Below are positions 1-61,046 of a stretch of 64,000 bases of DNA, piece after piece; position 1 is the stretch's first letter; every line of letters starts with the position of its first letter. Position numbers and translations under genes: made by a program. The stretch lies in assembly GCF_024713975.1 (NCBI RefSeq), contig NC_091116.1, forward strand, positions 3,496,463-3,560,462, read 5' to 3'. The notes under the pieces were generated by a model, which made no database searches, was not told the DNA's origin, and saw only the letters and a program-made list of their open reading frames with translations. This DNA comes from Paralichthys olivaceus (taxonomy: Eukaryota > Chordata > Actinopteri > Pleuronectiformes > Paralichthyidae).

Positions 1-200
1 TTACTGCTGTCCGTGATCCTTCTCGTGGTCGTTTCCTTTCCAATGTCGGCATTCTTTGTCGGTTGCTGCATCTTGCCGTTGTCAATGATCCTGCAGGTGG
101 TGGTGGTCTTTCCCTGGTCAGTATTCTTAGGCGATCTCTGCTCCATGCCGTTTTCCATATTCTTTGTCGTTGTGCTTGCCGGTCCGCTGTCAGCTGCCAT
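1..200 (-). CDS. Partial ORF of a putative retroelement, open at the window edge
   Basis: An ATG at 198-200 on the minus strand opens a 66-codon frame that runs off the window without a stop. The product is polar and rich in Thr, Asn, Lys and Asp. It contains two imperfect copies of a roughly 24-residue unit, also visible as two ~73-bp DNA repeats. I recognise no domain. It follows a leader that starts inside a broken 5S rRNA gene (448-491), so it may be the first ORF of a non-LTR element that uses 5S DNA as a target, as described for fish Tx1-clade elements such as Mutsu and Dewa. That assignment is inference from position only. No signal peptide or membrane segment is seen. Confidence 0.35.
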   Translation of the reverse strand, partial: MAADSGPASTTTKNMENGMEQRSPKNTDQGKTTTTCRIIDNGKMQQPTKNADIGKETTTRRITDSS

Positions 201-447
201 GAGATCTGTCCTACTCCTCTCTACTCGCTCTCTCCTCTCTTTGACGTCACTCATTCAAAACACACACACCCTCAAAAAAAGAGATGTTCCCCCGAACAGC
301 AAGCTGCTGGGGGAATAAAATCGAACACAAAAAGTAAAAAAACACTCTCACTCACTTTCAATCTAGCCCAAAAAAACAAAAGAATTCCTCCTGCTCTCTC
401 CACCTGCTCTCTCTGCTCCTTCACTGCCTGGTTGCACACCTGAACGC
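201..447 (-). other. Leader-like sequence between 5S fragment and ORF
   Basis: On the minus strand this runs from the 5S fragment to the ATG at 200. It has purine-rich GAGAG runs, long T runs and a GC-rich inverted repeat around 291-316 (CCCCGAACAGC pairing with GCTGCTGGGGG). It is absent from the two other 5S copies in the window, so it is specific to this insertion. I read it as a 5' untranslated region of a mobile element. No gene is seen in it. Confidence 0.35.
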
Positions 448-491
448 AATCAGACGTGATCAGTTGTGTTCAGGGTGGTATGGCCGTAAGC
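448..491 (-). pseudogene. 5S rRNA gene fragment (5' ~44 nt)
   Basis: The minus strand matches the first part of 5S rRNA. The first ~25 nt match exactly, from GCTTACGGCCATACCACCC onward, and then the match becomes imperfect. Similarity stops near 448, inside the gene, before the internal promoter boxes. The same upstream flank as the intact gene at 8947-9066 follows on the right. This is a broken 5S copy with foreign sequence joined at its 3' side. Confidence 0.8.
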
Positions 492-793
492 GATAGACTC
501 CAGCCACAATACCTCCTTTATACATGTGAATCATCACTCACTCGCAGTTTTGAATCTCTCTTCTGAAATCTCAAAGGACCCCTAGTAGCAAATTCTTTGC
601 AAATAGATTTGGCTCCTCTCAGAAAACGGCTTATGGGACTCTGGTTGGTTATGGTGTATTTACCAGTGTCAGGCCCTGGGGATTCACTGTTCGTCAGTGT
701 CTGTAGTGTAGTGGTTATCACCTTTTCTTAACACGTGAAAGGTCCTCAGCCTGAAACTGGGCAGAAACAACTTCTGTCTCAAAAAATGTCTAT

Positions 794-867
794 TGCATTA
801 GCCGGGAATCGAACCCGGGCCTCCCGCGCGGCCCTCGAGAAAAGTTTAGCTAAACCGACCTAAACGC
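794..867 (-). pseudogene. Degenerate tRNA-Gly(GCC)-like gene
   Basis: The minus strand ends with a perfect tRNA-Gly 3' half: an anticodon-stem side with GCC, the T arm GGTTCGATTCC, and an acceptor side ending in CTAATGCA. The 5' half is poor. The D arm is replaced by a GTTTAGCTAAAC palindrome and the 5' acceptor side (GCGTTTA) pairs badly with the 3' side. The A box is lost while the B box is intact. It may be a tRNA pseudogene or the head of a tRNA-derived repeat. An identical copy sits at 9369-9442. Confidence 0.6.
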
Positions 868-1076
868 TTTTTAACATGCATTTCAATGATAGTGCTGAAC
901 CACAGTGTGGATGTAATATTCTTTTGGCCACTCTTCCGGCTGTGGCGCTGTTCCGACTTTTTCTATAGACTCTCGGTCCTCCGATATTTCTTTTTTTCCT
1001 TCAGGCAAACCGGCAGACGGTCATAAAAGCGTGCATATTCACTGTCTATTGTTGATGTCATTACGTGTTCTTACAG

Positions 1077-1122
1077 GGGCTGTGCATCATTCAAACATTC
1101 AAGTCATTTTCATTCGTCAAAG
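1077..1122 (+). other. Candidate 5' untranslated exon of the transposon-like gene
   Basis: A pyrimidine-rich acceptor ending TTCTTACAG precedes a 46-nt block that ends in AAAG|GTAAGA, a strong donor. A matching acceptor (TTATGGTAG) lies 6 nt before the ATG of the ORF at 2751. Together they suggest a spliced 5' leader for that gene. The same signals are kept in copy 2. No transcript evidence is available. Confidence 0.3.
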
Positions 1123-1685
1123 GTAAGACACGTTGTTTTATTTTCATAAAAGTTAGCCTGCTTTCTGATAACATTAGTTCGCTGCTGCTGCTTATTCGCT
1201 TGGTTGATGCGATAGAACTGCCCGGAATTAAGTTTGGGGTAATTATGGACTAAATAATGAATGAACATCATGCTATTTGTTGAGATTGTGTGTGGTTTTT
1301 AGGTTGTTGCTTAATATTATATATTCGTCAGCGCGGTATTGACAGTAATGTCGTGTCAGCAGTTGCCTAGCACCACTCGCAGGGTAACGCAGAAGATTTG
1401 TGGTGAAATAACACGTCAAAGTATGAATGGACATGATCGTTTTATATAGCTATATGCATAGTTTTCATGACGTGACGTTAAATAGTCTTGTCAGTCCGTT
1501 TATATCAATCTTTTGTTGATAAGTTAACTATAGCCTACCTCAGCATTGCTCACTTGCTAAGAGACTGACGCTACAAACGTGTGTTGAAATTACGTGATAA
1601 CATGATTGTATTTCATATTTTTGTGTATCTGGTTTTGATGTCGTGATGTTAACTCATCTTTACACCATGGATCTGTTACTCCTAA

Positions 1686-2204
1686 AGCCTAGTTTATGCT
1701 TCTGCGTCACGTCGACGCCGTAGCTACGGCGTAGCTACGGCGTAGACGCAGACCCCTACGCCGTATCCTGACGTGCGCCTCCCAAAAATCCTAACTACGC
1801 GGACGTCGACGCAGACCGTAAGCGCTGTGATTGGTCCGCTCAGAACGTAAGTTCCGGCGGTTGCTTTTCCGGTCTTTCTCCCTCGTCGTAAAAAACACCT
1901 CCGCAAACGTTTTCTTTGTAGCTTGCGCTTCAACATTTGCAATATAAGCATTTGTTCTTCAATATTGATGAGCTCCAACAACAAATACAGCTGCTCCACC
2001 TCGGTCGCCATTGTTTAACTGTTGTTTACTTTACGGAAGAAAAAGCGAGGATTCGGCTATAACCACACAAACACACCGCTACACCCCCTAGCGGCATGGC
2101 GGTGAATTGCAGAGCAACGCGTTCCCTCGACGCAGAACTTCGAATGCTGAACGACCTACGGCGTAGGTACGGCGTAGACGTGACGCAGAAGCATAAACTA
2201 GGCT
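1686..2204 (-). mobile_element. Harbinger-like non-autonomous transposon (519 bp)
   Basis: Long terminal inverted repeats begin AGCCTAGTTTATGCTTCTGC and continue for ~35 bp. The element is flanked by TAA on the left and TTA on the right, and the orthologous position in copy 2 (near 10259) has the uninterrupted site CCTAAGATG. A minus-strand reading frame starting at 2011 encodes MATEVEQLYLLLEL followed by an Arg/Lys-rich stretch, resembling the N-terminus of fish Harbinger/ALP1-like transposases, and then stops at the inverted repeat. No catalytic DDE region is present, so the element depends on transposase supplied in trans. A relative lies at 60552-60955. Confidence 0.8.
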
Positions 2205-2426
2205 TTAGATGTCTGACTAGTTAGGCTACATATTGCATCAACTAAAACAGCTGTACTACTAAGGGATTGATACCATCTCTTTTTTTAAAATACAAATGTG
2301 ATATTAATATGTTCAAATTCATTTGGCAGAACTAGTAGTGCCAGAGTAGACTTTCAGACAAGCAACAGATTGTCAAGAGAGTATTAATCAAGTGTAATAA
2401 GACTTTGATCTAGGCATTCACTTCTC

Positions 2427-2640
2427 CTACCCCCCCCCTCCCCCTCTCTCACACACACATAACTGCTCTCCAACTCCTGCTGCGAAGACCGTCCCACCCC
2501 CCTGTTGTTTTCGCGCCCACACACACACACACACACACTGTGAGTAGATAAGGATCAGAGAGGTGTGATAAACTATTGTCTTGACCCTATGAACTATTTC
2601 ACTGCAAGCCCCCACACACACACACGCACACACTGTACTT
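2427..2640. repeat. CA/TG-rich microsatellite cluster
   Basis: Several (CA)n tracts and C-rich runs are separated by a repeated AGAGGTGTGA...AACTATTG phrase seen twice (about 2558 and 2655). Reading frames across it are cysteine/valine artefacts of the dinucleotide repeat. Copy 2 carries the same block at 10481-10700. Confidence 0.8.
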
Positions 2641-2750
2641 CCTCCCAGACTCAGAGGTGTGAGAAACTATTGCCTTTACCCTCTGAACTATTTGACTGAA
2701 GTTCATAGAAGATAACCCAAACTTATGTTTTTACTTTATGGTAGGTCAAG

Positions 2751-4330
2751 ATGCAGAGGGCGGTGTTCTTCCCAGGTAAGCTCAGTGTTGTGTTCCGCAA
2801 GGGACCAGGTGGATTTCTCTTACAGGAACCCTCTGCAGAAGCCAGACGGATCAAGGATGACCCCACTCGTCAGGACAGGTCTGCCCTGAGAGAGGACCTC
2901 GTGCGGCAGAATGCCCTGGCTGCGGTTCGTCAGAGAGGGGGTGATGCCTCAGACAGGACGGAGGTGCTAGGAGACTACATCCTGCAGTTTGGCATGTATA
3001 AAGGGAAGGCTTTCAGGTGGCTTTTGGAGAATGATGTTGGCTATACATGTTACCTTGTCAAGGATATGCGTAAGGAGGAGGCTGCAGGTCGTTTCAGGCC
3101 CGAGGGGCATAGCAAGGATAGTCTACTGTCCTTTGTGAATTATGCTCTGAGTTTTGCAGAGATCCAGTCTCTCCTCGCCTACGAGGCCAGGGGAGAGGGT
3201 GTGGTGACAGCCACATCAGAGGACGACCAGCTGGTTGGCTTTGGCGACAGGGCCAAGAGCACCTGGAAGGAGGAAGAGACAAGACCCACAACCAGACCCA
3301 CAACCACACCCACAACCAACAGTCCGCCTCTGCAGATTCTGCCGCTTGGAACTGAAACAGGGACCAAACAGCCCTCACATTCACACGGGCTTCCCTGGAG
3401 TGGCAGGGAAATACATTCAAGGATATGTGTTCCTCCCAACCGCAATAAGACTCTACAACTCATCTCCCTCTGTCAGAGCCACCATCACAGAACTGCACTA
3501 ACATACCTGTCACCTTTGCACCATGTACCCTGCACTACACTACGTGTGTTAATTTAAACCACTTTAATATTACAGACCTTTTTATACAATAATATTGTCT
3601 TTTGCACATCCAGTCCACGTATTCTTACACTGCCAGTATATTGTATAGTCAAGTACTGATATTTATACCCTATTATATATTAAATATCATATCATATTAT
3701 ATCATACTCTGCATATTCTCTGTATATTCTTCGGATTTACAAGTCTATATACACATATTTATACATGTGTACATGCTATTATTATATTATTATTATCACT
3801 ACTACTACTACTATTATTATTATTATATATACTATTGCTGCCATTATTACTATATACTGCTATTATATTGGTATAATTACTGTCTATATAAATATATATT
3901 ATGTTATATTGTATACTATATATATATATATATAAATATATACTGTACTAATATTCTTATATACTGTCTAACAATAACATTACCATCATATCATTATTAC
4001 TATTATCATCATATTGCCACTGCACTATTTGTCTGCCTATTCATCTTGTGTTTCTGTTTTGTTCTTTTTACCTAAATGTTTTGTTTTGTTTTGTTCTATT
4101 GCATTGTGTTTTGTTGTGTTCCGATACACAAGCTGCTATGACACCTTAATTTCCCTCCGGGGATGAATAAAGTACTCTATCTATCTATCTATCTATCTTA
4201 TTGCCCATCAAAGGTGTACTCTTTGTACAGAGATAAGGGCATGGCCAAGGAGATGAGCTGGCCCGAGTTTCAGCAGTCTCCTTTCTATGAGGCTGAGAGA
4301 CAAAGAACTGTGGAAGAAAGGAAGAAATGA
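2751..4330 (+). pseudogene. Transposon-associated gene with WLLENDxGY module, broken by a LINE insertion (copy 1)
   Basis: An ATG at 2751 opens a frame through about residue 160. Its clearest part is a conserved-looking module (residues ~74-145) with FGMYKGKAFRWLLENDVGY. This resembles the GKYKG...WLLENDPGY pattern of short bacterial DUF3820-type proteins and of an abundant unnamed fish protein family. Near 3290 a (ACCCACAACC)n tract shifts the frame. In the next frame a CRFCRLELKQGPNSPH segment continues to GVAGKYI, where the LINE tail enters. After the LINE the original frame resumes (4204-4330) with CPSKVYSLYRDKGMAKEMSW and ends at TGA 4328-4330. The ancestral gene therefore probably had a Cys-pair C-terminal domain. 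Function is unknown; a role in a mobile element is inferred from copy number and setting. Confidence 0.55.
3417..4199 (+). mobile_element. 5'-truncated Rex1/CR1-like LINE 3' end
   Basis: The segment encodes the last ~20 residues of a reverse transcriptase ORF (PTAIRLYNSS...ATITELH), then an AT-rich 3' UTR with many TATA and TAT microsatellites. It ends with CCTCCGGGGATGAATAAAGTA and (CTAT)n. The same sequence forms the 3' end of the longer minus-strand element at 18241-20157. It interrupts the host frame just before CPSKVYSLY. The insertion is present in both tandem copies, so it is older than the duplication. Confidence 0.85.
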
Positions 4331-5340
4331 TTTCCCTGTATACCCATTGTTTAGACCCATTTTATTTGATTTTATTTCATTATTTTATTTCATTATTGTT
4401 TATTTAATTATTGTTCTTAATGTTTCTTATTTGACTTGTGTATATGTCTCTAGACGTACAGGTTCTTTGTCTGTGTATATGTAAATAGACTACAAATTAA
4501 TAGTTGTAAAACAAAGTGTACATATATTGTTTTTCTTTTCTTTTTTTCTTTTCTTTATGTGTGAATGCGTGAAAATGTACACACCAGAAACTAGTTTGGT
4601 TTGTTTGTTGTGTTCTTTTTTTTAAAATTTCTTTCTTTATTTTACAAATGTCTGAATGTATGAATGTGTGAAAGGTATATATGCCAGTATGTAGAAACTT
4701 GATCTTTTGTGCATAGTTTGGACTGTTTGTTGTACAGATGTACTTAGTGCTCTGTTGTTAAAAATCGTTTGGATGTAAATAAGTCAATGCTTCTGTCTAG
4801 TCTTCTGTATGAAAGTAAATAGATTGTAAACATGAAAAGGTTCATATGTTATTAGGTTATTATGTTAATTGTTCTGCATGGTTATATGTCTATAGATCAT
4901 AGGTTCTTTAGACTTCTGTTGAGCTGAATATAGCTGTATAGTTTTTTCTTTCTTTTTTTTTTCTTTTACTTAATTTTTTTACTTACTTTAACATTATTGC
5001 ATGACCAGAAACACCAGTTTTCTACTTGTCATATTAACCAGCACTGTATCTATCACTGTATACTCCCCCTCCCTATGTATGTACTGTGTCATTGTCATAT
5101 CTAATTGTTGTCTTAAATTATCTATATTATTTCTAAAACTTTACTTACAGCCCAATTATTTCATTTGTCATATATACATTATTTCACATGTTCATAAATA
5201 AAACTGGAACTTTCTTTGAAATATTGCACACTGCCCTTTTGTCCTGCTTAAATAAAAACAATATAGTGGTCATAGTAGTCATGAGTCCTAAGAATTAATT
5301 GTTAATCTCCACGTATTTTCAATGCTTTTTACTCAGAAAT
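4331..5340 (+). other. AT-rich region, probable 3' UTR of the transposon-like gene
   Basis: No coding frame worth calling. The stretch is T-rich with repeated TTTCTTTT tracts. AATAAA occurs at 5197-5202 about 870 nt after the stop codon, followed by a GT-rich patch, which fits a polyadenylation signal for the gene ending at 4330. Copy 2 has an internal duplication of part of this region (12763-13110). Confidence 0.4.
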
Positions 5341-5481
5341 ATCACGTTCAATAACACCGCGATCGGGATGCGAACCCCGTCTTTTGGGGAATCGGAAATA
5401 AATAAATAAATGAACGGACCCAGAGAGAATGCTTCGATCCTATTGGCTTGCTGGACTGGTCCAGTATTCTCGACTGGCCCC

Positions 5482-5592
5482 CGCGCGGCAGCCGTGGTTA
5501 GTTTAGCTAAACGGCCCTGAACACTTTCCCATTCATTGTCTATGGTAGGACTAAACTACTATGGACGTAATGCTCCTCGTGGCCACTGAACA
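5482..5592. repeat. Diverged second copy of the tRNA-Gly-adjacent segment
   Basis: Aligns with 820-930. Shared features are CGCGCGGC, the palindrome GTTTAGCTAAAC, a CATT...CAATG-type middle, and a GTAAT...GGCCACT end. About 100 bp to the left there is also a tRNA-like fragment (GCGAACCCCG). Each tandem unit therefore carries two related segments about 4.6 kb apart, and copy 2 repeats the arrangement. Confidence 0.5.
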
Positions 5593-5612
5593 TGTTGGGG
5601 CTGTTTTTAGCT

Positions 5613-7853
5613 TCATCTCCAGTTCTCTTCCTCGATTTCTCTTTTAACTTCAAGGACTGACTGAAGAAGAAGCATCAGGAGTATTGATCTCAACAACAAC
5701 TTTATGTGTCTGTTTTCACCAACAAAGGTAAGCGATTCCGCTGTCCTGACATTGTTCGGGAGTTTGTTCATCCACTGAGGTGCCAAAACAGAGAAGAGTC
5801 GCAACTTCGCTGAGCGGGCTTTGTTTGCTCTCAGCGATGGGGGTACCAGTCGGCCAGCTGATGAACGAAATGCTCTCGCTGGGGCATGTGGTCTGACCAG
5901 TGTTTGGAGGTAGATGGGTGCAGTTCCATTGACCGCCTTGAAGGCCAGCACCATCATCTTGAATCGGATGCAGGCCCCAACAGGAAGCCAGTGGAGGTCA
6001 CGGAGGAGGGGGTCACATGGGAGAATTTGGGAGAGGCTGGGAGTACAGCCAAGAGGGAGTTGCAATAGTCCAGGTGGGAGATGACCAGCACTTGGACCAG
6101 GAGTTGTGTTGTGTCTTTTGTGAGGAAGGACCGGATCCTGCAGATATTGTAGAGGGCAAACCTGCAGGATCGGGCCACATCAGTGATGTTGGGGGTGCAG
6201 GACAGTCCATTGTCGAGGATTACGCCCAGGTTCCTTGCCGTCGACGAAAGTGATACCGTGACATCCTCGACAGTGACTGACAGGTCCATATGAGGGCAGT
6301 CTTTCCCCGGGATGAAGAGCAGTTCAGTTTTCTAAGGTTGAGTTTGAGGTGATGCGCAGCTGTCCAAGCGGAGATGTCTGCCAGACATTCCGAGATGCAC
6401 GTCACAACGTGAGTGCTGGAGGAGTATGTGGGAAAAGAGAGGAACAGTTGGGTGTCGTCGGCATAACAGTGGTAAGAGAATCCATGCGATGTGATTGCAG
6501 AGCCTAGTGATCTAGTGTATAGTGAAAACAGAAGTGGTCCTAATACTGAGCTTTGAGGGACACCAGTTTCCAGAAGGCAGGGATTGGACAAGGTGCCGTT
6601 TCATGTGACCTGAAAGGTGCGATTTGTCAGGTATGATGTGAACCAGGTCAGAGCAGAGTCAGCAATGCCAAGTTCAGCCAGAGTGGAGAGGAGGATTTGG
6701 TGGTTGACTTTGTCAAACGCAGAGGATAAGCCGAGGAGAATGAGGACTGACGAGATGGACGAGGCTCTGGCGGCACAGAACGACTCAGTCGCCGTGAGGA
6801 GGGCCGTCTCAGTGGAGTGACCAGTCCTAAAGCCTGACTGATTAGGGTCAAGGAGGTCATTTTCTGTAAGATAGGAGGACAGTTGGTTGTAGACTGCACG
6901 TTCCAGTGTTTTAGAGAGGAATGAAAGAAGAGATACAGGTCTGTAGTGACGGATGTCAGCTGTGTCGTGAGAGATGTCTTGGAGAAGGGAGGAGGGAATC
7001 GGGTCAAGGGAACAGGTGGTGGCACGGTTAGACGTCACTAGCGTGAGAACATCTTCAGAGGAGAGAGGGCTGAAGCAGGTAAGGCCATCAGAGGTGAGGT
7101 TTGGGGGAGGTGCTTTCTGGATGGGCATAGGAGTAAATGAGGAGCTGATGTCTTTTACTTTCTTGGTAAAGTAAGTTGGAAAGTCATCAGCAGTGAGGAA
7201 GGAAGGAGGGGGAGGAGTAGGAGGGGTGAGAAGAGAAGAGAAGAGAATAAGGAAAATAGTTTCCTGGGGTTGGAGGCAGAGGAATTGATCGTTGACAGGT
7301 AGAAGGCAGATTTAGCTGCTGATACTGTTGAGGTGAAGTCAGAGAGGAGGTGGTGGTAATGGGCAAGGTCATCAGGATGATGTGATTTTCTCCATTTTCT
7401 CTCTGCTGCTCGTAGCACCGATCTATTGGTTCGCAGAGATTCAGACAGCCAGGGAGGGGGGAGATGATCCTGCCGGTAGGGAGGTGAGAGGACAGAGAGC
7501 ATCTAAAGAGGACACCTCTTTAGATGCTCTCTGTCCTCGCGAGGGATGATAGCAGAGTGGAGGAGGCTTCCTCAGTAGATATTAGTGAAAATTGGTCTGT
7601 AGATGGTAGTGAGGAAAGAACAGTAGAGGCGAGAGCAGAGGGAGAGAGGGATTTCAGATTGCGGCGGGTGTTGACCGTGTGAGCTCTGGGGGCGAGGGAG
7701 GTGGTGAATTTTAAGGGGAGAGAGAAAGTGACAGTGTGGTGGTCAGACACAGTGAGTGGGGTAACAGAGAGTGCCGAGGTACTACAGGACCTTGTGAAGA
7801 CAAGATCGAGTTGATTCCTGGACCGGTGGGTCAATGAATTCAGAGGAGCGCAG
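5613..7853 (-). mobile_element. Degenerate L2-type LINE, copy 1 (endonuclease end to reverse transcriptase)
   Basis: Read on the minus strand. First comes the C-terminal part of an APE-type endonuclease (NQLDLVFTR and TVSDHHTVTFSLPL near 7834-7730). Then a linker (SESLRTNRSVLRAAERKWRK), then reverse transcriptase with HYRPVSLLSFLSKTLER, SGFRTGHSTETALL, an S-x-AFDKVNH motif, and [11 protein letters not shown] holding the catalytic DD. It ends with [10 protein letters not shown] and a C-terminal HWLPV/NRTAPIYL-type tail. Frameshifts at about 7505, 6595 and 6220, plus missing internal bases, make it non-functional. It is 5'-truncated next to tRNA-Asp. The family is fish L2, recognised from these motifs. 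Confidence 0.85.
7488..7538. repeat. Perfect 24-bp inverted repeat with 3-nt loop
   Basis: Left arm 7488-7511 and right arm 7515-7538 are exact reverse complements around an ACA loop. It lies at the point where the LINE endonuclease frame should join the reverse transcriptase frame. The flanks read as if only one arm belonged to the original element. Copy 2 carries the same hairpin at 15821-15871. Confidence 0.9.
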
Positions 7854-7894
7854 CTTCTCTGGGGGGATGTTGAAGAGTGTCAAGAAGAATGCTT

Positions 7895-7966
7895 CTCCCC
7901 GTCGGGGAATCGAACCCCGGTCTTCCGCGTGACAGGCGGAGATACTGTCCACTATACTAACGAGGA
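7895..7966 (-). tRNA. tRNA-Asp(GTC)
   Basis: A 72-nt minus-strand gene with a full cloverleaf. The acceptor TCCTCGT pairs with the 3' side ACGGGGA. The D arm carries TAGTATAGTGG (A box), the anticodon loop reads CTGTCAC with anticodon GTC, and the T arm GGTTCGATTCC is a good B box. There is no intron and no encoded CCA. It differs from the usual vertebrate gene by a few changes (ACAGTATCTC where GAGTATCCC is common). It lies just upstream of the L2 fragment. Copy 2 lost the corresponding stretch in a deletion, so this is the only copy in the window. Confidence 0.9.
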
Positions 7967-8156
7967 TTGGTGCAATAAGCACGTCGACAGGACGGTGGCG
8001 CTGTTCTCTTAAGGATAAGTCATTGTGTGTTGTGGCCTTGTACAGTGATCTGGAATTTGAAAAGTAATTTCCACTGAGGCCTAACATTGATAAGTTTGTG
8101 TTCCCTGTATTTATCTTTTTAATTTCCAACAGCCCCATCAATGAACAACAACGCAA

Positions 8157-8945
8157 TTTTGTCGTATCGTTGCAAGAAAAAAATCATTACAATTTTCAAA
8201 AATTTCCTTCAGCAATATTGTCAGTGTTTCGTATCCAGTTGCTTCCTTGATGCAGAGTAAACTCCCTGCTCTTTCATCTCTCTCTGCAAATATGACATTT
8301 TGAAAATGATGTGTTAATAAAATATGAATAAAGTAGTGTTTTGACTACATATGGTCTTTTGAATGCTCACTTTCTTCCTTCAGTGATGATGCGAGGGTTC
8401 CGTATCCTTTTTTTTCTTTGATGAACAGTCTTTCCTGCTCTTTCCAAGATGTGTCTCCTCTGAAGCAGAAGCAACTGCACCATCTGCTGGCGGCAAAGAG
8501 AATCATCACCCTAATCCACAGTTTTGCTACTTTGTGACCATTGACACTCTGGAGTTCCTTCAACTGTTTTATTGTGCAGGGAAAATAAACTGAAGGTGTC
8601 ATTTTGTCCTAGTATTGCAAGCCAAAAAAAAATCATTTGAATTTTCAATCATATCCTTCATTAACTATGTCAGGGTTACATAAACTGTTTTTTCCTTGAT
8701 GCTGAGTAAACTCACCGCTCTCTCCAAATATGACATTTTGAGACTGACATGTTGAAATGACACGGATAAAGTAGTGTTTTGACTACATATGGTCTTTTGA
8801 ATGCTCACTTTCTTCCTTCAGTGATGATGCGAGGGTTCCATATCCTTTTTTTCTTTGATGAATAGTCTTTCCTGCTCTTTCCAAGATGTGTCTCCTCTGA
8901 AGCAGCAGCAACAGCGCCCTCTGCTCTTTGCAATGTAAAGTCTAA
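8157..8945. repeat. Tandem pair of ~430-bp repeats before the 5S gene
   Basis: Unit A (about 8157-8597) and unit B (about 8598-8945) share AAATATGACATTTTGA, GAATAAAGTAGTGTTTTGAC, TCAGTGATGATGCGAGGGTT and CCAAGATGTGTCTCCTCTGAA. Unit B is shorter and leads into the 5S terminator. A third, rearranged version lies at 16263-16760. No coding potential is seen. The block may be spacer DNA of the 5S locus. Confidence 0.8.
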
Positions 8946-8948
8946 AAA
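8941..8948 (-). terminator. RNA polymerase III T-run terminator of 5S
   Basis: On the minus strand the 5S 3' end runs straight into five T residues (8948-8944), the standard pol III stop signal. This supports an active or recently active gene. Confidence 0.8.
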
Positions 8949-9066
8949 GCTTACAGCACCTGGTATTCCCAGGCGGTCTCCCATCCAAGTACTAACCAGG
9001 CCCAACCCTGCTTAGCTTCCGAGATCGGACGAGATCGGGCGTGTTCAGGGTGGTATGGCCGTAAGC
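8947..9066 (-). rRNA. 5S ribosomal RNA, full length (120 nt)
   Basis: The minus strand gives a complete 120-nt 5S rRNA starting GCTTACGGCCATACCACC and ending GCTGTAAGCTT. The terminal stem pairs (GCTTACGG with CTGTAAGC). The internal promoter is intact: the A-box region AAGCTAAGCAGGGTTGGG lies at about nt 50-67 and the C-box region TACTTGGATGGGAGACC at about nt 80-97. There is a TATA-like element ~28 nt upstream and a T-run downstream. It is the only complete 5S gene in the window; the other three copies are truncated. The product is a component of the large ribosomal subunit, transcribed by RNA polymerase III with TFIIIA. Confidence 0.97.
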
Positions 9067-9091
9067 GATAGACTCCAGCCACAATACCTCC

Positions 9092-9097
9092 TTTATA
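9092..9097 (-). promoter_or_regulatory. TATA-like element upstream of 5S
   Basis: The minus strand reads TATAAA at -26 to -31 relative to the 5S start at 9066, the position where external TATA-like elements of 5S genes are often found. The same flank precedes the broken copies at 491 and 16127. Confidence 0.6.
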
Positions 9098-9368
9098 CAT
9101 GTGAATCATCACTCACTCGCAGTTTTGAATCTCTCTTCTGAAATCTCAAAGGACCCCTAGTAGCAAATTCTTTGCAAATAGATTTGGCTCCTCTCAGAAA
9201 ACGGCTTATGGGACTCTGGTTGGTTATGGTGTATTTACCAGTGTCAGGCCCTGGGGATTCACTGTTCGTCAGTGTCTGTAGTGTAGTGGTTATCACCTTT
9301 TCTTAACACGTGAAAGGTCCTCAGCCTGAAACTGGGCAGAAACAACTTCTGTCTCAAAAAATGTCTAT

Positions 9369-9442
9369 TGCATTAGCCGGGAATCGAACCCGGGCCTCCC
9401 GCGCGGCCCTCGAGAAAAGTTTAGCTAAACCGACCTAAACGC
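9369..9442 (-). pseudogene. Degenerate tRNA-Gly(GCC)-like gene, copy 2
   Basis: Same sequence as 794-867: an intact 3' half with B box and a degenerate 5' half containing the GTTTAGCTAAAC palindrome. Unlikely to fold as a functional tRNA. Confidence 0.6.
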
Positions 9443-10804
9443 TTTTTAACATGCATTTCAATGATAGTGCTGAACCACAGTGTGGATGTAATATTCTTTT
9501 GGCCACTCTTCCGGCTGTGGCGCTGTTCCGACTTTTTCTATAGACTCTCGGTCCTCCGATATTTCTTTTTTTCCTTCAGGCAAACCGGCAGACGGTCATA
9601 AAAGCGTGCATATTCACTGTCTATTGTTGATGTCATTACGTGTTCTTACAGGGGCTGTGCATCATTCAAACATTCAAGTCATTTTCATTCGTCAAAGGTA
9701 AGACACGTTGTTTTATTTTCATAAAAGTTAGCCTGCTTTCTGATAACATTAGTTCGCTGCTGCTGCTTATTCGCTTGGTTGATGCGATAGAACTGCCCGG
9801 AATTAAGTTTGGGGTAATTATGGACTAAATAATGAATGAACATCATGCTATTTGTTGAGATTGTGTGTGGTTTTTAGGTTGTTGCTTAATATTATATATT
9901 CGTCAGCGCGGTATTGACAGTAATGTCGTGTCAGCAGTTGCCTAGCACCACTCGCAGGGTAACGCAGAAGATTTGTGGTGAAATAACACGTCAAAGTATG
10001 AATGGACATGATCGTTTTATATAGCTATATGCATAGTTTTCATGACGTGACGTTAAATAGTCTTGTCAGTCCGTTTATATCAATCTTTTGTTGATAAGTT
10101 AACTATAGCCTACCTCAGCATTGCTCACTTGCTAAGAGACTGACGCTACAAACGTGTGTTGAAATTACGTGATAACATGATTGCATTTCATATTTTTGTG
10201 TATCTGGTTTTGATGTCGTGATGTTAACTCATCTTTACACCATGGATCTGTTACTCCTAAGATGTCTGACTAGTTAGGCTACATATTGCATCAACTAAAA
10301 CAGCTGTACTACTAAGGGATTGATACCATCTCTTTTTTTAAAATACAAATGTGATATTAATATGTTCAAATTAATTTGGCAGAACTAGTAGTGCCAGAGT
10401 AGACTTTCAGACAAGCAGTAGATTGTCAAGAGAGTATTAATCAAGTGTAATAAGACTTTGATCTAGGCATTCACTTCTCCTACCCCCCCCCCTCCCCCTC
10501 TCTCACACACACATAACTGCTCTCCAACTCCTGCTGCAAAGACCGTCCCACCCCCCTGTTGTTTTCGCGCCCACACACACACACACACACACTGTGAGTA
10601 GATAAGGATCAGAGAGGTGTGATAAACTATTGTCTTGACCCTATGAACTATTTCACTGCAAGCCCCCACACACACACACGCACACACTGTACTTCCTCCC
10701 AGACTCAGAGGTGTGAGAAACTATTGCCTTTACCCTCTGAACTATTTGACTGAAGTTCATAGAAGATAACCCAAACTTATGTTTTTACTTTATGGTAGGT
10801 CAAG

Positions 10805-12385
10805 ATGCAGAGGGCGGTGTTCTTCCCAGGTAAGCTCAGTGTTGTGTTCCGCAAGGGACCAGGTGGATTTCTCTTACAGGAACCCTCTGCAGAAGCCAGA
10901 CGGATCAAGGATGACCCCACTCGTCAGGACAGGTCTGCCCTGAGAGAGGACCTCGTGCGGCAGAATGCCCTGGCTGCGGTTCGTCAGAGAGGGGGTGATG
11001 CCTCAGACAGGACGGAGGTGCTAGGAGACTACATCCTGCAGTTTGGCATGTATAAAGGGAAGGCTTTCAGGTGGCTTTTGGAGAATGATGTTGGCTATAC
11101 ATGTTACCTTGTCAAGGATATGCGTAAGGAGGAGGCTGCAGGTCGTTTCAGGCCCGAGGGGCATAGCAAGGATAGTCTACTGTCCTTTGTGAATTATGCT
11201 CTGAGTTTTGCAGAGATCCAGTCTCTCCTCGCCTACGAGGCCAGGGGAGAGGGTGTGGTGACAGCCACATCAGAGGACGACCAGCTGGTTGGCTTTGGCG
11301 ACAGGGCCAAGAGCACCTGGAAGGAGGAAGAGACAAGACCCACAACCAGACCCACAACCACACCCACAACCAACAGTCCGCCTCTGCAGATTCTGCCGCT
11401 TGGAACTGAAACAGGGACCAAACAGCCCTCACATTCACACGGGCTTCCCTGGAGTGGCAGGGAAATACATTCAAGGATATGTGTTCCTCCCAACCGCAAT
11501 AAGACTCTACAACTCATCTCCCTCTGTCAGAGCCACCATCACAGAACTGCACTAACATACCTGTCACCTTTGCACCATGTACCCTGCACTACACTACGTG
11601 TGTTAATTTAAACCACTTTAATATTACAGACCTTTTTATACAATAATATTGTCTTTTGCACATCCAGTCCACGTATTCTTACACTGCCAGTATATTGTAT
11701 AGTCAAGTACTGATATTTATACCCTATTATATATTATATATCATATCATATTATATCATACTCTGCATATTCTCTGTATATTCTTCGGATTTACAAGTCT
11801 ATATACACATATTTATACATGTGTACATGCTATTATTATATTATTATTATCACTACTACTACTACTATTATTATTATTATATATACTATTGCTGCCATTA
11901 TTACTATATACTGCTATTATATTGGTATAATTACTGTCTATATAAATATATATTATGTTATATTGTATACTATATATATATATATATTAATATATACTGT
12001 ACTAATATTCTTATATACTGTCTAACAATAACATTACCATCATATCATTATTACTATTATCATCATATTGCCACTGCACTATTTGTCTGCCTATTCATCT
12101 TGTGTTTCTGTTTTTGTTCTTTTTACCTAAATGTTTTGTTTTGTTTTGTTCTATTGCATTGTGTTTTGTTGTGTTCCGATACACAAGCTGCTATGACACC
12201 TTAATTTCCCTCCGGGGATGAATAAAGTACTCTATCTATCTATCTATCTATCTTATTGCCCATCAAAGGTGTACTCTTTGTACAGAGATAAGGGCATGGC
12301 CAAGGAGATGAGCTGGCCCGAGTTTCAGCAGTCTCCTTTCTATGAGGCTGAGAGACAAAGAACTGTGGAAGAAAGGAAGAAATGA
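10805..12385 (+). pseudogene. Transposon-associated gene with WLLENDxGY module, copy 2
   Basis: Virtually identical to 2751-4330. The 268-codon frame from the ATG at 10805 runs into the same LINE insertion, the same ACCCACAACC-repeat frame change lies near 11345, and the downstream coding remnant ends at TGA 12383-12385. Both copies carry the same lesions, so the gene was already dead before the unit duplicated. What is visible is the FGMYKGKAFRWLLENDVGY module and, in the shifted frame, the Cys-pair segment. I do not recognise a named function. Confidence 0.55.
11471..12254 (+). mobile_element. 5'-truncated Rex1/CR1-like LINE 3' end, copy 2
   Basis: Copy of 3417-4199 ending in the (CTAT)n tail. 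Minor differences in the TATATA tract only. Confidence 0.85.
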
Positions 12386-12762
12386 TTTCCCTGTATACCC
12401 ATTGTTTAGACCCATTTTATTTGATTTTATTTCATTATTTTATTTCATTATTGTTTATTTAATTATTGTTCTTAATGTTTCTTATTTGACTTGTGTATAT
12501 GTCTCTAGACGTACAGGTTCTTTGTCTGTGTATATGTAAATAGACTACAAATTAATAGTTGTAAAACAAAGTGTACATATATTGTTTTTCTTTTCTTTTT
12601 TTCTTTTATTTATGTGTGAATGCGTGAAAATGTACACACCAGAAACTAGTTTGGTTTGTTTGTTGTGTTCTTTTTTTTTAAATTTCTTTCTTTATTTTAC
12701 AAATGTCTGAATGTATGAATGTGTGAAAGGTATATATGCCAGTATGTAGAAACTTGATCTTT

Positions 12763-13110
12763 TGTAAGTCAATGCTTCCGTCTAGTCTTCTGTATGAAAG
12801 TAAATAGATTGTAAACATGAAAAGGTTCATATGTTATTAGGTTATTATGTTAATTGTTCTGCATGGTTATATGTCTATAGATCATAGGTTCTTTAGACTT
12901 CTGTTGAGCTGAATATAGCTGTATAGTTTTTTCTTTTACTTATATTTTTTACTTACTTTAACATTATTGCATGACCAGAAACACCAGTTTTCTACTTGTC
13001 ATATTAACCAGCACTGTGTATGTAGACACTTGATCTTTTGTGCATAGTTTGGACTGTTTTGTTGCACAGATGTACTTAGTGCTCTGTTGTTAAAAATCGT
13101 TTGGATGTAA
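12763..13110. repeat. Internal tandem duplication (~345 bp) specific to copy 2
   Basis: The segment from AAGTCAATGCTTCCGTCTAG through CATATTAACCAGCACTGT appears here and again immediately afterwards (about 13112-13380). Copy 1 has it once (about 4780-5050). A slightly different poly-T tract distinguishes the two. It arose after the large duplication. Confidence 0.75.
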
Positions 13111-13944
13111 ATAAGTCAATGCTTCCGTCTAGTCTTCTGTATGAAAGTAAATAGATTGTAAACATGAAAAGGTTCATATGTTATTGGGTTATTATGTTAA
13201 TTGTTCTGCAAGGTTATATGTCTATAGATCATAGGTTCTTTAGACTTCTGTTGAGCTGAATATAGCTGTATAGTTTTTTCTTTCTTTTTTTTTTCTTTTA
13301 CTTAATTTTTTTACTTACTTTAACATTATTGCATGACCAGAAACACCAGTTTTCTACTTGTCATATTAACCAGCACTGTATCTATCACTGTATACTCCCC
13401 CTCCCTATGTATGTACTGTGTCATTGTCATATCTAATTGTTGTCTTAAATTATCTATATTATTTCTAAAACTTTACTTACAGCCCAATTATTTCATTTGT
13501 CATATATACATTATTTCACATGTTCATAAATAAAACTGGAACTTTCTTTGAAATATTGCACACTGCCTTTTTGTCCTGCTTAAATAAAAACAATATAGTG
13601 GTCATAGTAGTCATGAGTCATAAGAATTAATTGTTAATCTCCACGTATTTTCAATGCTTTTTGCTCAGAAATATCACGTTCAATAACAGCGCGATCGGGA
13701 TGCGAACCCCGTCTTTTGGGGAATCGGAAATAAATAAATAAATGAACGGACCCAGAGAGAATGCTTCGATCCTATTGGCTTGCTGGACTGGTCCAGTATT
13801 CTCGACTGGCCCCCGCGCGGCAGCCGTTGATTGTTTAGCTAAACGGCCCTGAACACTTTCCCATTCATTGTCTATGGTAGGACTAAACTACTATGGACGT
13901 AATGCTCCTCGTGGCCACTGAACATGTTGGGGCTGTTTTTAGCT

Positions 13945-16076
13945 TCATCTCCAGTTCTCTTCCTCGATTTCTCTTTTAACTTCAAGGACTGACTGAAGAA
14001 GAAGCATCAGGAGTATTGATCTCAACAACAACTTTGTGTGTCTGTTTTCACCAACAAAGGTAAGCGATTCCGCTGTCCTGACATTGTTCGGGAGTTTGTT
14101 CATCCACTGAGGTGCCAAAACAGAGAAGAGTCGCAACTTCGCTGAGCGGGCTTTGTTTGCTCTCAGCGATGGGGGTACCAGTCGGCCAGCTGATGAACGA
14201 AGTGCTCTCGCTGGGGCATGTGGTCTGACCAGTGTTTGGAGGTAGATGGGTGCAGTTCCATTGACCGCCTTGAAGGCCAGCACCATCATCTTGAATCAGA
14301 TGCAAGCCCCAACAGGAAGCCAGTGGAGGTCACGGAGGAGGGGGTCACATGGGAGAATTTGGGAGAGGCTGGGAGCACAGCCAAGAGGGAGTTGCAATAG
14401 TCCAGGTGGGAGATGACCAGCACTTGGACCAGGAGTTGTGTTGTGTCTTTTGTGAGGAAAGACCGGATCCTGCAGATATTGTAGAGGGCAAACCTGCAGG
14501 ATCGGGCCACATCAGTGATGTTGGGGATGCAGGACAGTCCATTGTCGAGGATTACGCCCAGGTTCCTTGCCGTCGACGAAAGTGATACCGTGACATCCTC
14601 GACAGTGACTGACAGGTCCATATGAGGGCAGTCTTTCCCCGGGATGAAGAGCAGTTCAGTTTTCTAAGGTTGAGTTTGAGGTGATGCGCAGCTGTCCAAG
14701 CGGAGATGTCTGCCAGACATTCCGAGATGCACGTCACAACGTGAGTGCTGGAGGAGTATGTGGGAAAAGAGAGGAACAGTTGGGTGTCGTCGGCATAACA
14801 GTGGTAAGAGAATCCATGCGATGTGATTGCAGAGCCTAGTGATCTAGTGTATAGTGAAAACAGAAGTGGTCCTAATACTGAGCTTTGAGGGACACCAGTT
14901 TCCAGAAGGCAGGGATTGGACAAGGTGCCGTTTCATGTGACCTGAAAGGTGCGATTTGTCAGGTATGATGTGAACCAGGTCAGAGCAGAGTCAGCAATGC
15001 CAAGTTCAGCCAGAGTGGAGAGGAGGATTTGGTAGTTGACTTTGTCAAACGCAGAGGATAAGCCGAGGAGAATGAGGACTGACGAGATGGACGAGGCTCT
15101 GGCGGCACAGAACGACTCAGTCGCCGTGAGGAGGGCCGTCTCAGTGGAGTGACCAGTCCTAAAGCCTGACTGATTAGGGTCAAGGAGGTCATTTTCTGAA
15201 AGATAGGAGGACAGTTGGTTGTAGACTGTACGTTCCAGTGTTTTAGAGAGGAATGAAAGAAGAGATACAGGTCTGTAGTGACGGATGTCAGCTGTGTCGT
15301 GAGAGATGTCTTGGAGAAGGGAGGAGGGAATCGGGTCAAGGGAACAGGTAGTGGCACGGTTAGACGTCACTAGCGTGAGAACATCTTCAGAGGAGAGAGG
15401 GCTGAAGCAGGTAAGGCCATCAGAGGTGAGGTTTGGGGGAGGTGCTTTCTGGATGGGCATAGGAGTAAATGAGGAGCTGATGTCTTTTACTTTCTTGGTA
15501 AAGTAAGTTGGAAAGTCATCAGCAGTGAGGAAGGAAGGAGGGGGAGGAGTTGGAGGGGTGAGAAGAGAAGAGAAGAGAATAAGGAAAATAGTTTCCTGGG
15601 GTTGGAGGCAGAGGAATTGATCGTTGACAGGTAGAAGGCAGATTTAGCTGCTGATACTGTTGAGGTGAAGTCAGAGAGGAGGTGGTGGTAATGGGCAAGG
15701 TCATCAGGATGATGTGATTTTCTCCATTTTCTCTCTGCTGCTCGTAGCACCGATCTATTGGTTCGCAGAGATTCAGACAGCCAGGGAGGGGGGGAGATGA
15801 TCCTGCCGGTAGGGAGGTGAGAGGACAGAGAGCATCTAAAGAGGACACCTCTTTAGATGCTCTCTGTCCTCGCGAGGGATGATAGCAGAGTGGAGGAGGC
15901 TTCCTCAGTAGATATTAGTGAAAATTGGTCTGTAGATGGTAGTGAGGAAAGAACAGTAGAGGCGAGAGCAGAGGGAGAGAGGGATTTCAGATTGCGGCGG
16001 GTGTTGACCGTGTGAGCTCTGGGGGCGAGGGAGGTGGTGAATTTTAAGGGGAGAGAGAAAATGACAGTGTGGTGGT
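13945..16076 (-). mobile_element. Degenerate L2-type LINE, copy 2
   Basis: Same element and same frameshifts as at 5613-7853, with a few substitutions. Its 5' end is lost in the deletion that joins it to the 5S fragment at 16077. The reverse transcriptase YADDTQLF motif and the C-terminal [10 protein letters not shown] segment are recognisable. Confidence 0.85.
15821..15871. repeat. Perfect 24-bp inverted repeat, copy 2
   Basis: Arms 15821-15844 and 15848-15871 with an ACA loop, identical to 7488-7538. The hairpin predates the unit duplication. Confidence 0.9.
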
Positions 16077-16127
16077 CTTCTGAGATCAGACGAGATCGGG
16101 CGTGTTCAGGGTGGTATGGCCGTAAGC
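16077..16127 (-). pseudogene. 5S rRNA gene fragment (5' ~51 nt)
   Basis: The minus strand matches 5S from nt 1 to about 51 with two or three substitutions, then breaks into L2 sequence. It retains the same upstream flank with the TATA-like element. The 3' half, including the C box, is deleted. Confidence 0.9.
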
Positions 16128-16812
16128 GATAGACTCCAGCCACAATACCTCCTTTATACATGTGAATCATCACCATCCTCAATTGTTCTGTTGCTTTGCG
16201 ACCATGGAATCTTGAGGTGTGGGGGGGCGGGGGTTAAATTGTTCTGAAAAACAAGCTCAAGGTGCAATTTTGTCGTATCGTTGCAAGAAAAATATCATTA
16301 CAATTTTCAAAAATTTCCTTCAGCAATATTGTCAGTGTTTCATATCCAGTTGTTTCCTTGATGCAGAGTAAACTCCCTGCTCTTTCATCTCTCTCTGCAA
16401 ATATGACATTTTGAAAATGATATGTTAATAAAATATGAATAAAGTAGTGTTTTGACTACATATGTTCTTTTGAATGCTCACTCTCTTCCTTCAGTGATGA
16501 TGCGAGGGTTCCGTATCCTTTTTTTCTTTGATGAACAGTCTTTCCTGCTCTTTCCAAGATGTGTCTCCTCTGAAGCAGAAGCAACTGCACCATCTGCTGG
16601 CGGCAAAGAGAATCATCACCCTAATCCACAGTTTTGCTACTTTGTGACCATTGACACTCTGAAGTTCCTTCAACTGTTTTATTGTGCAGGAAAAATAAAC
16701 TGAAGGTGTAATTTTGTCTCCTCTGAAGCAGCAGCAACAGCGCCCTCTGCTCTTTGCAAAGACAAGTCTAAAAAGCTTACAGCACTTGGTATTTCCAGGC
16801 GGTCTCCCATCC
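16128..16812. repeat. Partial, rearranged third tandem unit
   Basis: Begins with the 5S upstream flank (to about 16172), switches to a CAATTGTTCTGTTGCTTT-containing segment, then matches 8150-8610 and 8890-8990 of copy 1 before ending in a 5S 3' fragment. Most of the unit, including all transposon genes, is missing. A GC-rich GGGGGGGCGGGGG run marks one join. Confidence 0.75.
16773..16812 (-). pseudogene. 5S rRNA gene fragment (3' ~40 nt)
   Basis: Matches the 3' end of 5S (nt ~81-120) on the minus strand, with the T-run terminator, then stops at CCATCC and passes into the flanking CATCAATTGTTCTG sequence. It has no 5' part. Confidence 0.85.
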
Positions 16813-16852
16813 ATCATCAATTGTTCTGTTGCTTTCCGACCATGGAATTTGG

Positions 16853-16854
<2 letters not shown>

Positions 16855-16909
<55 letters not shown>
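16855..16909. repeat. (GT)n microsatellite
   Basis: About 27 uninterrupted GT units at the outer edge of the 5S array. Confidence 0.95.
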
Positions 16910-16912
<3 letters not shown>

Positions 16913-17539
16913 AAAGTGTGGACCTTGATGCTGGCTGGTTTTCTTAAACTGATGTGAAATAATTGAGAGGATGTGTATTTACATGTTGATCTATTTGATT
17001 TTACTCTGTGAGAGCTATCGATGCACTGAGTTGATAACAGGCCCCGATATTCTGTGATTAAGCATTGTATTGTTGCGTGTTGTTCATGTGTTCAATGTGA
17101 TTTTACACTGCAGATAAAGGTTTCATATTTTAATTTCACTCACAGATTCATGGCTATTGAGCAGTGCTTTGTGAGTGTTGGTCGAATACGGTCACTGCTA
17201 TAACATATTAATGAAAATGCATATTATTAATATTTGTATGTGTGTATATTAAATCAATACAATTGTCAATGCTTCTGCATATGTGTTTGACTGTCTCTAT
17301 TTAATTTAATTTACTATGTTCCACTTAATAATGGGCTAAAAGGATTGGTTTATGTAATATTTATGTCTTTGTTATGCACATTAGTCATCCAATCATTACT
17401 GATTTGATGATATAGAGCTCAATTTGAATGCAGACAATTATTTCTTCAATGCAAAATATATTTTAAAAATCTTGCCTGCATTTGTTTACATATGATAATG
17501 AACAAAAATAATAACCAATGATTTTGTCTTTTTTTATAG

Positions 17540-18218
17540 ACACTATTCATTGACCCTCAGCATCCAGCCCTTCATCAATCGTGAGTGTGGCCAATAAAAA
17601 CGTTCTTGTTTGCATTACATTTATTATTAAGGATTTAGAGGGTTGTATTAAATTAGGTTAATTTAGTTTGGATTAGATTTTATTGTACATTATATAATTT
17701 AGTTTAGGTTGTCAGGCTAGTGTATGTTATGATTGAAATGAACATATTTTGTTCGTTTCTCTGTTTAGGCATCCTTCACAGCTTCTGGATTTTCACGGTG
17801 GGTTAGAGTAGACGAGAATATATACTATATAAAGGCATTAAATTGGGAAAGCACACCTGTCAGTCAAGTTACACAAACTCTTTACGTGTACCCCAAATTA
17901 TAGGCCCACAGGTGACGAGGAAGAACAGGGGCCAGTATAATATTTGTTATCTTGTAGAATATGTTGGATGCATAGATTTATAACCATCCACCTCACTGTT
18001 CTTTTCTGCTTACCTTCCTTCTTTTCTGTTGTCCCTGTGTTCGTAATCTACTGGACACAGACACTAAGAACTTGTTTGAAAGTATTGTATTATGCATTTA
18101 ATTTCCTTTTTATATTTGATTGAATACTTAATTTCGACGGACATTTCGGAACTGAATTGTTTCAGAGATGCCGAGGAAGGCGAAAGAGGTCGCAGGCACA
18201 GCCCACCCATTTTTGACC
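17540..18218 (+). other. Three short exon-like islands of unknown gene
   Basis: Three blocks look like exons by splice signals alone. They are 17540-17580 (TTTTTTATAG acceptor, GTGAGT donor, 41 nt), 17769-17797 (TTTCTCTGTTTAG acceptor, GTGGGT donor, 29 nt) and 18166-18218 (TTGTTTCAG acceptor, GTGAGA donor, 53 nt). Joined in order they keep one frame open for 41 codons (TLFIDPQHPALHQS...). A possible fourth block with good signals lies at 20233-20315, beyond the LINE insertion. I do not recognise the product. It could be a non-coding RNA, a small gene, or chance. Confidence 0.2.
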
Positions 18219-18240
18219 GTGAGATACTGAAACAATGACT

Positions 18241-18496
18241 ATATAGATAGATAGATAGATAGATAGATTACTTTATTCATCCCCGGAGGGAAATTAAGTT
18301 GTCATAGCAGCTTGTGTATCGGAACACAACAAAACACAATACAATAGAACAAAACAAAACATTGAGGTAAAAAAGAACAAAAACAGAAACACAAGATGAA
18401 TAGGCAGACAAGTAGTGCAGTGGCAATATGATGGTAATAGTAATGATGATATGATGGTAATGTTATTGTTAGACAGTATATAAGAATAGTAGTACA

Positions 18497-18536
<40 letters not shown>

Positions 18537-20157: not shown

Positions 20158-20384
20158 AATTTGACATGATTGTCCTAATGTAATGTAAATATATTGTATT
20201 TGTATTAATTGATAAGTTTCATGTATCACCAGGCTCCCAAAGTATAAACCCCTCCGCAGCCAGGAAATGTTTGGAGGACGGTTAGTCCACTGGCTCCCAT
20301 TCTCCTGCAAACAAGGTGAGCTTTTTTATTTCCCACACTGAGGCACATCTATAAAATACAATATTTTTCTGATGTTCTTTATTC

Positions 20385-43860: not shown

Positions 43861-44664
43861 TTGACTACCGTAAACGCGCGACAAATTGTGCACCTGAAAA
43901 ACGACATGCGACTGACTTGACCGCAGCAATATTTACTAGTTCACTTCCTGCCTTAGTCGCCGTCATCCTCTCCTCCTGATCGCGTTTTCAACTTCCTTCT
44001 ACAATGATCGTTCACCACATTTATAACGTTTATCTGCCATGAACATAAATGTTTGAAACATTTCCTGTCGTCTGATGTTTTCAAAATAAAAGCATTTCAG
44101 CCTTTCTTTTGATTGCATGCCTGCATTTTTTTCAAAACGCTTTTATTGTGAAGTGCTGGAGCGAACTATACACGGCTTCGTACCGTTTAGTAATCGATTT
44201 TATTTCAGTACATAGGACGACATCTATACAAGAAAGTACAGTAGTCACACCAGACAACTCACAAAGGCTGTGGTGAAATTAAAAGTAAAGAACTTCCGGT
44301 GATGGGCAGTAAGCGCTCTCCATGTCTGTGCCTGTCTCTCTCTCAACCTGCGCAGGTACACAAGACTTTAATATTTCGAAACCACTCGTCAAGGATGGAA
44401 ACAAAATGCTGATGTTTAAAGACAGTAGTCTGTCTGAGGAAGAGGTTCCAATGGGCAGGTAAGGAGCAGCAAAGCTTTTTTTGAAAGAAACAGCAGCGGA
44501 CATAAGTCCTCAGGGTATTCAGGACAGACAGGCTCTACCAGGCTTAGGTTACCGGAAGTGACAACCAGGTGAGGGCTCGGCATGAGGCTCCTCCTTCGAA
44601 TGGTGTCTGTCCGTGTCATGAGTTTGTTTGGAAAGTTGGAGAGGTGGACAGCAGCTCAGGTGAG

Positions 44665-60239: not shown

Positions 60240-61046
60240 GGAAACTCCAAACCCCCGTTTTCAAAGTACGCATGCGCGAAATCCATAGCCCCCGTTCCAG
60301 ACGTACGCATGCGCAAAATCCAAACCCCCCCCGTTCCAGATGTACGCATGCGTGAATCTCCTAACCCCACCCCCCCCCCCCCCCCCGTTCCAGATTTACG
60401 CATGCGCGAAATCCACAGCCCCCGTTCCAGACATACACATGCGCGAAATCCACAGCCCTCGTTCCAGATGTACGCGTGCACGAAATCCACAGCCCCCGTT
60501 CCAGATGTACGCATGCGTGAATCTCCTACCCCCCCGTTCCAGACTTATTAAAGCCTAGTTTATGCTTCTGCGTCACGTCGACGCCGCAGTCGTTGAGCAT
60601 TCGAAGTGCTGCGTCGAGGGAACGCGTTGCTCTGCAATTCACCGCCATGCCGCTAGGGGGGTGTAGCTGTGTGTTTGTGTGGTTATAGCCGAATCCTCGC
60701 TTTTTCTTCCGTAAAGTAAACAACAGTAAACAATGGCGACCGAGGTGGAGCAGCTGTATTTGTTGTTGGAGCTCATTAATATTGAGGAACAAATGCTTAT
60801 ATTGCAAATGTTGAAGCGCGAGCTACAAAGAAAACGTTTGCGGAGTTGGTTTTTACGACGAGGAAGAAAGACCGGAAAAAGCCACTGCCGGAACTTACGT
60901 TCTGAGCGGACCAATCACAGCGCTTGCGGTCGTTGACGCGGACCGCAACTAGGCTTTACGCATGCGCGAAATCCACAGCCCCCCGTTCCAGACACACGCA
61001 TGCGCGAATCTCCTACCCCCTCCCCTTTTAGACGTATGCATAAATA
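60240..61046. repeat. GC-rich minisatellite, ~38-bp unit, about 10 copies, interrupted
   Basis: Unit: CCCCCGTTCCAGACGTACGC followed by ATGCGCGAAATCCACAGC. Copies run from about 60255 to 60547 and resume at 60956-61040 after a MITE. Most contain CGCATGCGC, close to the palindromic NRF1 site. The block lies ~750 bp upstream of dhrsx exon 1. Confidence 0.85.
60552..60955 (+). mobile_element. Harbinger-like non-autonomous transposon (404 bp)
   Basis: The left end AGCCTAGTTTATGCTTCTGC is identical to the element at 1686-2204. The right end is shorter and more degenerate (GCAACTAGGCT). The plus strand from 60733 again encodes MATEVEQLYLLLEL and an Arg/Lys-rich run. Flanked by TAA/TTA. It sits inside one repeat of the minisatellite and interrupts it. 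Confidence 0.75.

Follow-up and report, generated by a model that had tools for sequence, protein, structure and literature searches.

How do 5S ribosomal RNA (rRNA) genes come to border repeat units of 7 kb and more that also carry transfer RNA (tRNA)-related sequences and remnants of mobile elements? This question is raised by a 64,000-nt stretch of the Paralichthys olivaceus genome (assembly GCF_024713975.1, contig NC_091116.1, positions 3,496,463 to 3,560,462, forward strand), hereafter called the window, whose first letter is position 1 in all coordinates below. An original prediction, made from the letters alone, had described two near-identical units and a stub, bordered by one complete and three broken 5S copies. 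BLASTN and alignment recovered the units and the stub, and the four 5S copies were confirmed by Rfam for the complete gene and by alignment for the fragments. This repeat structure is directly visible in the given sequence. The history that we consider probable, with a good measure of doubt, is that a block of DNA entered the spacer of a 5S unit, that the enlarged unit was duplicated once in tandem, and that the copies then decayed.

Two long tandem units meet at a complete 5S rRNA gene

Self-BLASTN of the window combined with gapped alignment showed that 449-7744 is repeated directly at 9024-16077; BLASTN splits this match into three pieces, with identities of 99.1, 99.6 and 99.5%. These repeats define the long units A (449-9023, 8575 nt) and B (9024-16077, 7054 nt); no third long copy was detected by self-BLASTN within the 64 kb. 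The two units differ by 33 substitutions over 6,756 compared sites (466-1684, 2207-4710 and 4711-7743), or 0.49%. The gapped alignment gave 49 substitutions, from which we omitted 11 at 441-465, where the first letters are diverged, and the last 5, past 7744, where the flank is misaligned. The shared part also contains six indels, namely a 522-nt element, a 276-nt segment and four single-base indels. Repeats of 7 kb at this level of identity are not a product of chance. From left to right along the unit, substitutions number 1/1219, 8/2504 and 24/3033 sites, in a three-way split made post hoc with the data already in view. They thus rise away from the upstream end of the 5S, as later conversion or exchange anchored at that end would give.

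The four 5S sequences are direct repeats, arranged head-to-tail on the minus strand. The sole complete gene (8948-9066) occupies the A/B junction and matches Rfam RF00001 over positions 1-120 of 120, with 118.5 bits versus a gathering score of 38. It is followed by a TTTTT terminator and has an upstream TATAAA, and in the minimum-energy fold the two ends of the gene pair with each other (z = -2.80; a fold at least as good was obtained for 2 of 200 shuffles). Judged from these features, this gene could be functional and is possibly still transcribed by RNA polymerase III (Pol III). Rfam, at E up to 10, reported no other 5S in the window. Alignment identified the three fragments, all on the minus strand: the 5' 43 nt at 449-491, the 5' 51 nt at 16077-16127 and the 3' 40 nt at 16774-16813. 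A tandem array of several head-to-tail units with intact genes is therefore not what the window contains, since one copy is intact and three are fragments.

The joins that had been singled out at 491, 9066 and 16127 proved to be 5S +1 positions, in register. Each is preceded by the same 46-nt upstream flank (492-537, 9067-9112 and 16128-16173, minus strand), with TATAAA at -31 from +1. A 31-base stretch of this flank had 0 matches in prokaryote and virus contig collections, as expected there. Within the left 5S piece, the sequence switches abruptly at 466, from diverged (449-465, 12/17 matches) to identical to the complete gene (466-491). The 5S stretch of 449-465 is matched equally well at only 9 of 63,983 plus-strand positions, 5S copies among them, so 449-465 is probably old 5S sequence rather than a chance match.

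The stub resembles a 5S unit lacking the block

In unit A, the 5S spacer proper (8153-8925) holds two copies of a segment that we call N, at 8156-8488 and 8601-8925, which agree in 281/338 alignment columns, as anticipated by the claim of a duplicated spacer segment. The short spacer of the stub (16128-16773) consists of the 46-nt flank, a 90-nt segment X (16174-16263), a copy of N (16264-16718) with 97.8% identity to that of A, and the 5S 3' flank. We regard X as spacer because it is similar to the sequence between A's N copies (30/42 columns) and is found again at 16811-16859 (45/49), next to the last 5S piece. The stub (16077-16813) thus has the appearance of a short, block-free 5S unit, in which 90 nt of spacer stand in for the 7.6 kb of A. 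Since it joins the 46-nt flank to X and then N, the extra 7.6 kb of A can be read against a block-free site within the window.

Compared with 16128-16268, the block of unit A spans 538-8152, between the 5S upstream flank and N, and measures 7,615 nt from the flank end at 537 to the N start at 8153. No target-site duplication was seen at the two block junctions, suggesting that recombination or end joining brought in the block, rather than its transposition as a single element. The reverse order, in which 5S sequence arrived beside the block, is kept as an alternative to block insertion.

At the right end of B, the interior of the L2-like long interspersed element (LINE) described below, at the equivalent of 7744, runs straight into the interior of the 5S at 16077, a single letter being common to both. 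B has no counterpart of A 7745-9015, tRNA-Asp included. In the stub, 284 nt of A's second N are absent, with TGTC shared at the join (16715). The last 5S piece ends where the second X copy starts, with CCA (16811-16813) common to both matches. The short shared letters at these last two deletion joins fit end-joining repair.

The block combines tRNA-related sequences with mobile-element remnants

A degenerate, full-length tRNA-Val-like sequence lies at 697-769 on the plus strand (59/73; copy in B at 9272-9344) and the 3' half of a tRNA-Gly-like sequence at 794-841 on the minus strand (41/48 columns; copy in B at 9369-9416). In a scan of positions 1-20000 against vertebrate tRNA-Val and tRNA-Gly consensus sequences, they scored 90 and 68, respectively, where the tile medians were 14 and 15. 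Neither ARAGORN nor Rfam reports a tRNA at either site, with sub-threshold Rfam matches only for the Gly-like one, and we therefore consider both to be remnants. The original prediction had listed the tRNA-Gly-like sequence, which stands as a 3' half in both units, and had overlooked the Val-like one. It had also placed a tRNA-Asp in the repeat unit. Indeed, a tRNA-Asp (GTC) is called by both ARAGORN and Rfam at 7895-7966 on the minus strand, the only such call among the tRNA-related sequences, but it is confined to A because B stops at 16077. As regards a possible linked 5S-tRNA unit, Val-like and Gly-like remnants lie in both units and tRNA-Asp in A alone. A suspected tRNA-like half near 5361-5383 was dropped for want of a tRNA match, and a weak tRNA-Gly alignment at 5442-5504 (43/64 columns, score 37) is not claimed.

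The block also contains what had been called a dead transposon-like gene. An open frame runs on the plus strand from an ATG at 2751 to 3428 (copy in B from 10805), where it is cut by a LINE 3' end (3429-4198, plus). Pfam, searched at E up to 1, gave no match for this frame. The inserted LINE end is 88% identical to 18245-19047 (minus), at the 3' end of a LINE located at 18245-20174 on the minus strand, and a relative of that 3' end thus sits in the dead gene of both units. The reverse transcriptase frame of this outlying LINE is 399 amino acids long and matches Pfam RVT_1 with 70 bits; the LINE also has an ATAG repeat at 18243-18268. A second, decayed LINE occupies approximately 5613-7879 on the minus strand, with a reverse transcriptase match in the frame 6601-7311 (minus; RVT_1, 57.3 bits). 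The prediction of a LINE thus holds, with a match to RVT_1 only, and its assignment to L2 is putative.

Both copies of this L2-like element contain a 51-nt palindrome, 94% self-complementary, at 7488-7538 and 15821-15871. Rfam returned microRNA matches at 7487-7539 and 15820-15872, one scoring 31 bits on either strand, where the cut-off is 95, and another scoring 30 bits on the plus strand, where it is 79. Both were rejected, and we attribute them to the near-perfect palindrome; the remaining sub-threshold Rfam matches were rejected as chance. Elsewhere in the block, the segment 818-932 has a relative at 5476-5587 (84/117 columns), and part of the block therefore has an older duplication of its own. 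The two segments have a common TTTAGCTAAAC core, each with a donor-like CAAAGGTAAG downstream, and they may represent promoter regions of one gene family.

The two units do not have equal content. A 522-nt element with terminal inverted repeats is present in A (1685-2206) and absent from B, where the site, near 10259, reads CTCCTAAGATG. The element has TAA at its left end and TTA at its right end, and the B site carries TAA, for comparison with the TWA target-site rule that we presume for PIF/Harbinger-like non-autonomous elements. A related copy is found at 60549-60931. Conversely, a local duplication of 276 nt (12752-13027), seen by alignment and self-BLASTN, is found only in B, which also lacks tRNA-Asp. 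The view that one 5S-bordered, duplicated unit contains both Pol III-type sequences and mobile-element remnants is thus upheld, while identical content of A and B is rejected.

Two further features lie outside the repeats. A 436-amino-acid open frame on the plus strand (44548-45855) has a putatively ankyrin-repeat-like sequence, may resemble a sosondowah-type protein and is a potential synteny anchor. At 58788-59132, a 47-nt unit is repeated in tandem 7.3 times, and a 94-nt period fits too.

Insertion and tandem duplication compared with other explanations

From this structure, we infer an insertion, an exchange and an order of events. A 7.6-kb block comprising Val-like and Gly-like remnants, a LINE-interrupted dead gene, an L2-like LINE and a tRNA-Asp would have landed in a 5S spacer. 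A single tandem duplication of the enlarged unit would then have followed, for which unequal exchange between adjacent 5S genes is the likeliest mechanism; exchange within the 5S is suggested by the inner A/B border, which is a complete 5S, as expected. The terminal-inverted-repeat element would subsequently have set A apart and the 276-nt local duplication B, and deletions would have broken three of the four 5S copies. Several observations weigh against this scenario. With two long copies only in the window, 5S-driven exchange is argued from one event. The left 5S is diverged at 449-465, yet the next 1.1 kb is identical, which simple exchange leaves unexplained. The join between the L2-like LINE and the 5S at the right end of B has a single letter in common, the low substitution count of the first segment has an uncorrected p of 0.012 for a segment picked post hoc, and the stub is taken as the ancestral form from one unit only.

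The 522-nt element, present in A and absent from B, was gained by A after the duplication or lost exactly by B, or else the two copies are alleles. The last case would be a false haplotype duplication, in which A and B are alleles of one long unit, placed in series by the assembler and misjoined at the 5S. A divergence of 0.49%, a present/absent element and a 276-nt indel are possible between alleles of an outbred animal, and the A/B join falls in a repeated gene. However, the window has no base written as N, the divergence is uneven along the unit, and the outer flanks differ, A leading to tRNA-Asp, two N segments and a complete 5S while B gives way to another 5S unit at a break at 16077. The third unit, the stub, also argues for real copies. 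We consider such an artefact unlikely, although it deserves to be taken seriously. Far less credible is an origin by retrotransposition, with the 5S pieces being 5S-derived short interspersed elements (SINEs) or targets of a 5S-specific LINE. Both kinds of element are known from zebrafish, and LINE reverse transcriptase fragments are present here. Nevertheless, the three 5S break points are all different, and it is the cut interior of the LINE that abuts the 5S at 16077. In addition, a start at +1 without upstream flank was not found. Instead, the three 5' ends carry in common the 46-nt flank, which is normally untranscribed, and this favours DNA duplication; we rejected the SINE origin.

The window might alternatively be the eroded edge of a larger higher-order 5S-tRNA array, with the 8-kb composite unit present in many genomic copies. 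The tandem order, the complete 5S at the junction and the broken 5S at both outer edges would agree with this, and zebrafish chromosome 4R offers a precedent for the concentration of 5S and tRNA genes, according to the accessible text of PMC11075544. By contrast, the 47 kb to the right contain no further long copy, and just 448 bases of the window lie to the left of unit A. Nor is there evident selection on copy number, given that only one of the four 5S copies is whole and that the tRNA-Val and tRNA-Gly sequences have degenerated. We judge such an array improbable, and hold equally doubtful its extension into a Pol III array of composite 8-kb units, within which 5S, tRNA-Val, tRNA-Gly and tRNA-Asp sequences travel and homogenise together, with the 5S as recombination hinge. 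The original claim that Pol III genes and mobile elements were amplified together is correct in that they share a duplicated unit, but it goes too far as to amplification, with two copies in the window, and as to tRNA genes, with tRNA-Asp alone called and in one unit. Under insertion followed by a single tandem duplication, the locus seems to be a small, decaying 5S ribosomal DNA (rDNA) locus with an unusually long unit, and otherwise an ordinary kind of gene-cluster rearrangement.

Comparison with known 5S loci in fish

As seen, the locus displays one duplication with decay and serves mainly as a worked example of 5S loci capturing neighbouring DNA. A long unit that proved real and multicopy would take fish 5S spacers well past the 1.2-kb class of pike and would place a block-free site and the duplicated state side by side in one case. 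We did not find an 8-kb composite 5S-tRNA-LINE unit in the literature searched, in which most subscription papers are not represented, so that its absence is unproven.

Associations of 5S with tRNA sequences and with transposons are already published in fish and cover the main ingredients. In Plectorhinchus mediterraneus, the available text of PMC3464664 describes a tRNA-Gln-like SINE in the spacer of type alpha 5S rDNA, a linkage that its authors call the first of its kind in fish. The present locus likewise has degenerate tRNA sequence within a 5S spacer; there, it is one tRNA-Gln-like sequence, whereas here a 7.6-kb block unites Val-, Gly- and Asp-type sequences with LINEs and a dead gene. 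Esox lucius has higher-order 5S arrays and dispersed 5S copies (group IV, 108/286 reads), as reported in the portions of PMC5437419 at hand. It shares with our locus several spacer length classes, unique DNA between 5S blocks and dispersed copies, but, among its three major classes of spacer, the longest measures 1153-1209 bp, as opposed to about 8.5 kb here, in two copies only. In Oreochromis niloticus, as in the window, dispersed 5S copies adjoin mobile elements; no duplicated composite unit was encountered in the available part of PMC3503869, whose main text uses the term tRNA 0 times. Zebrafish chromosome 4R, with its maternal 5S and tRNA clusters, resembles our locus in bringing 5S and tRNA genes together in a repeat-rich region, but forms large clusters, in so far as PMC11075544 is accessible, where the window has one intact 5S and one intact tRNA. 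Measured against these published cases, as far as their accessible texts extend, a duplicated unit of this size that combines these ingredients is unusual, while its kind is known.

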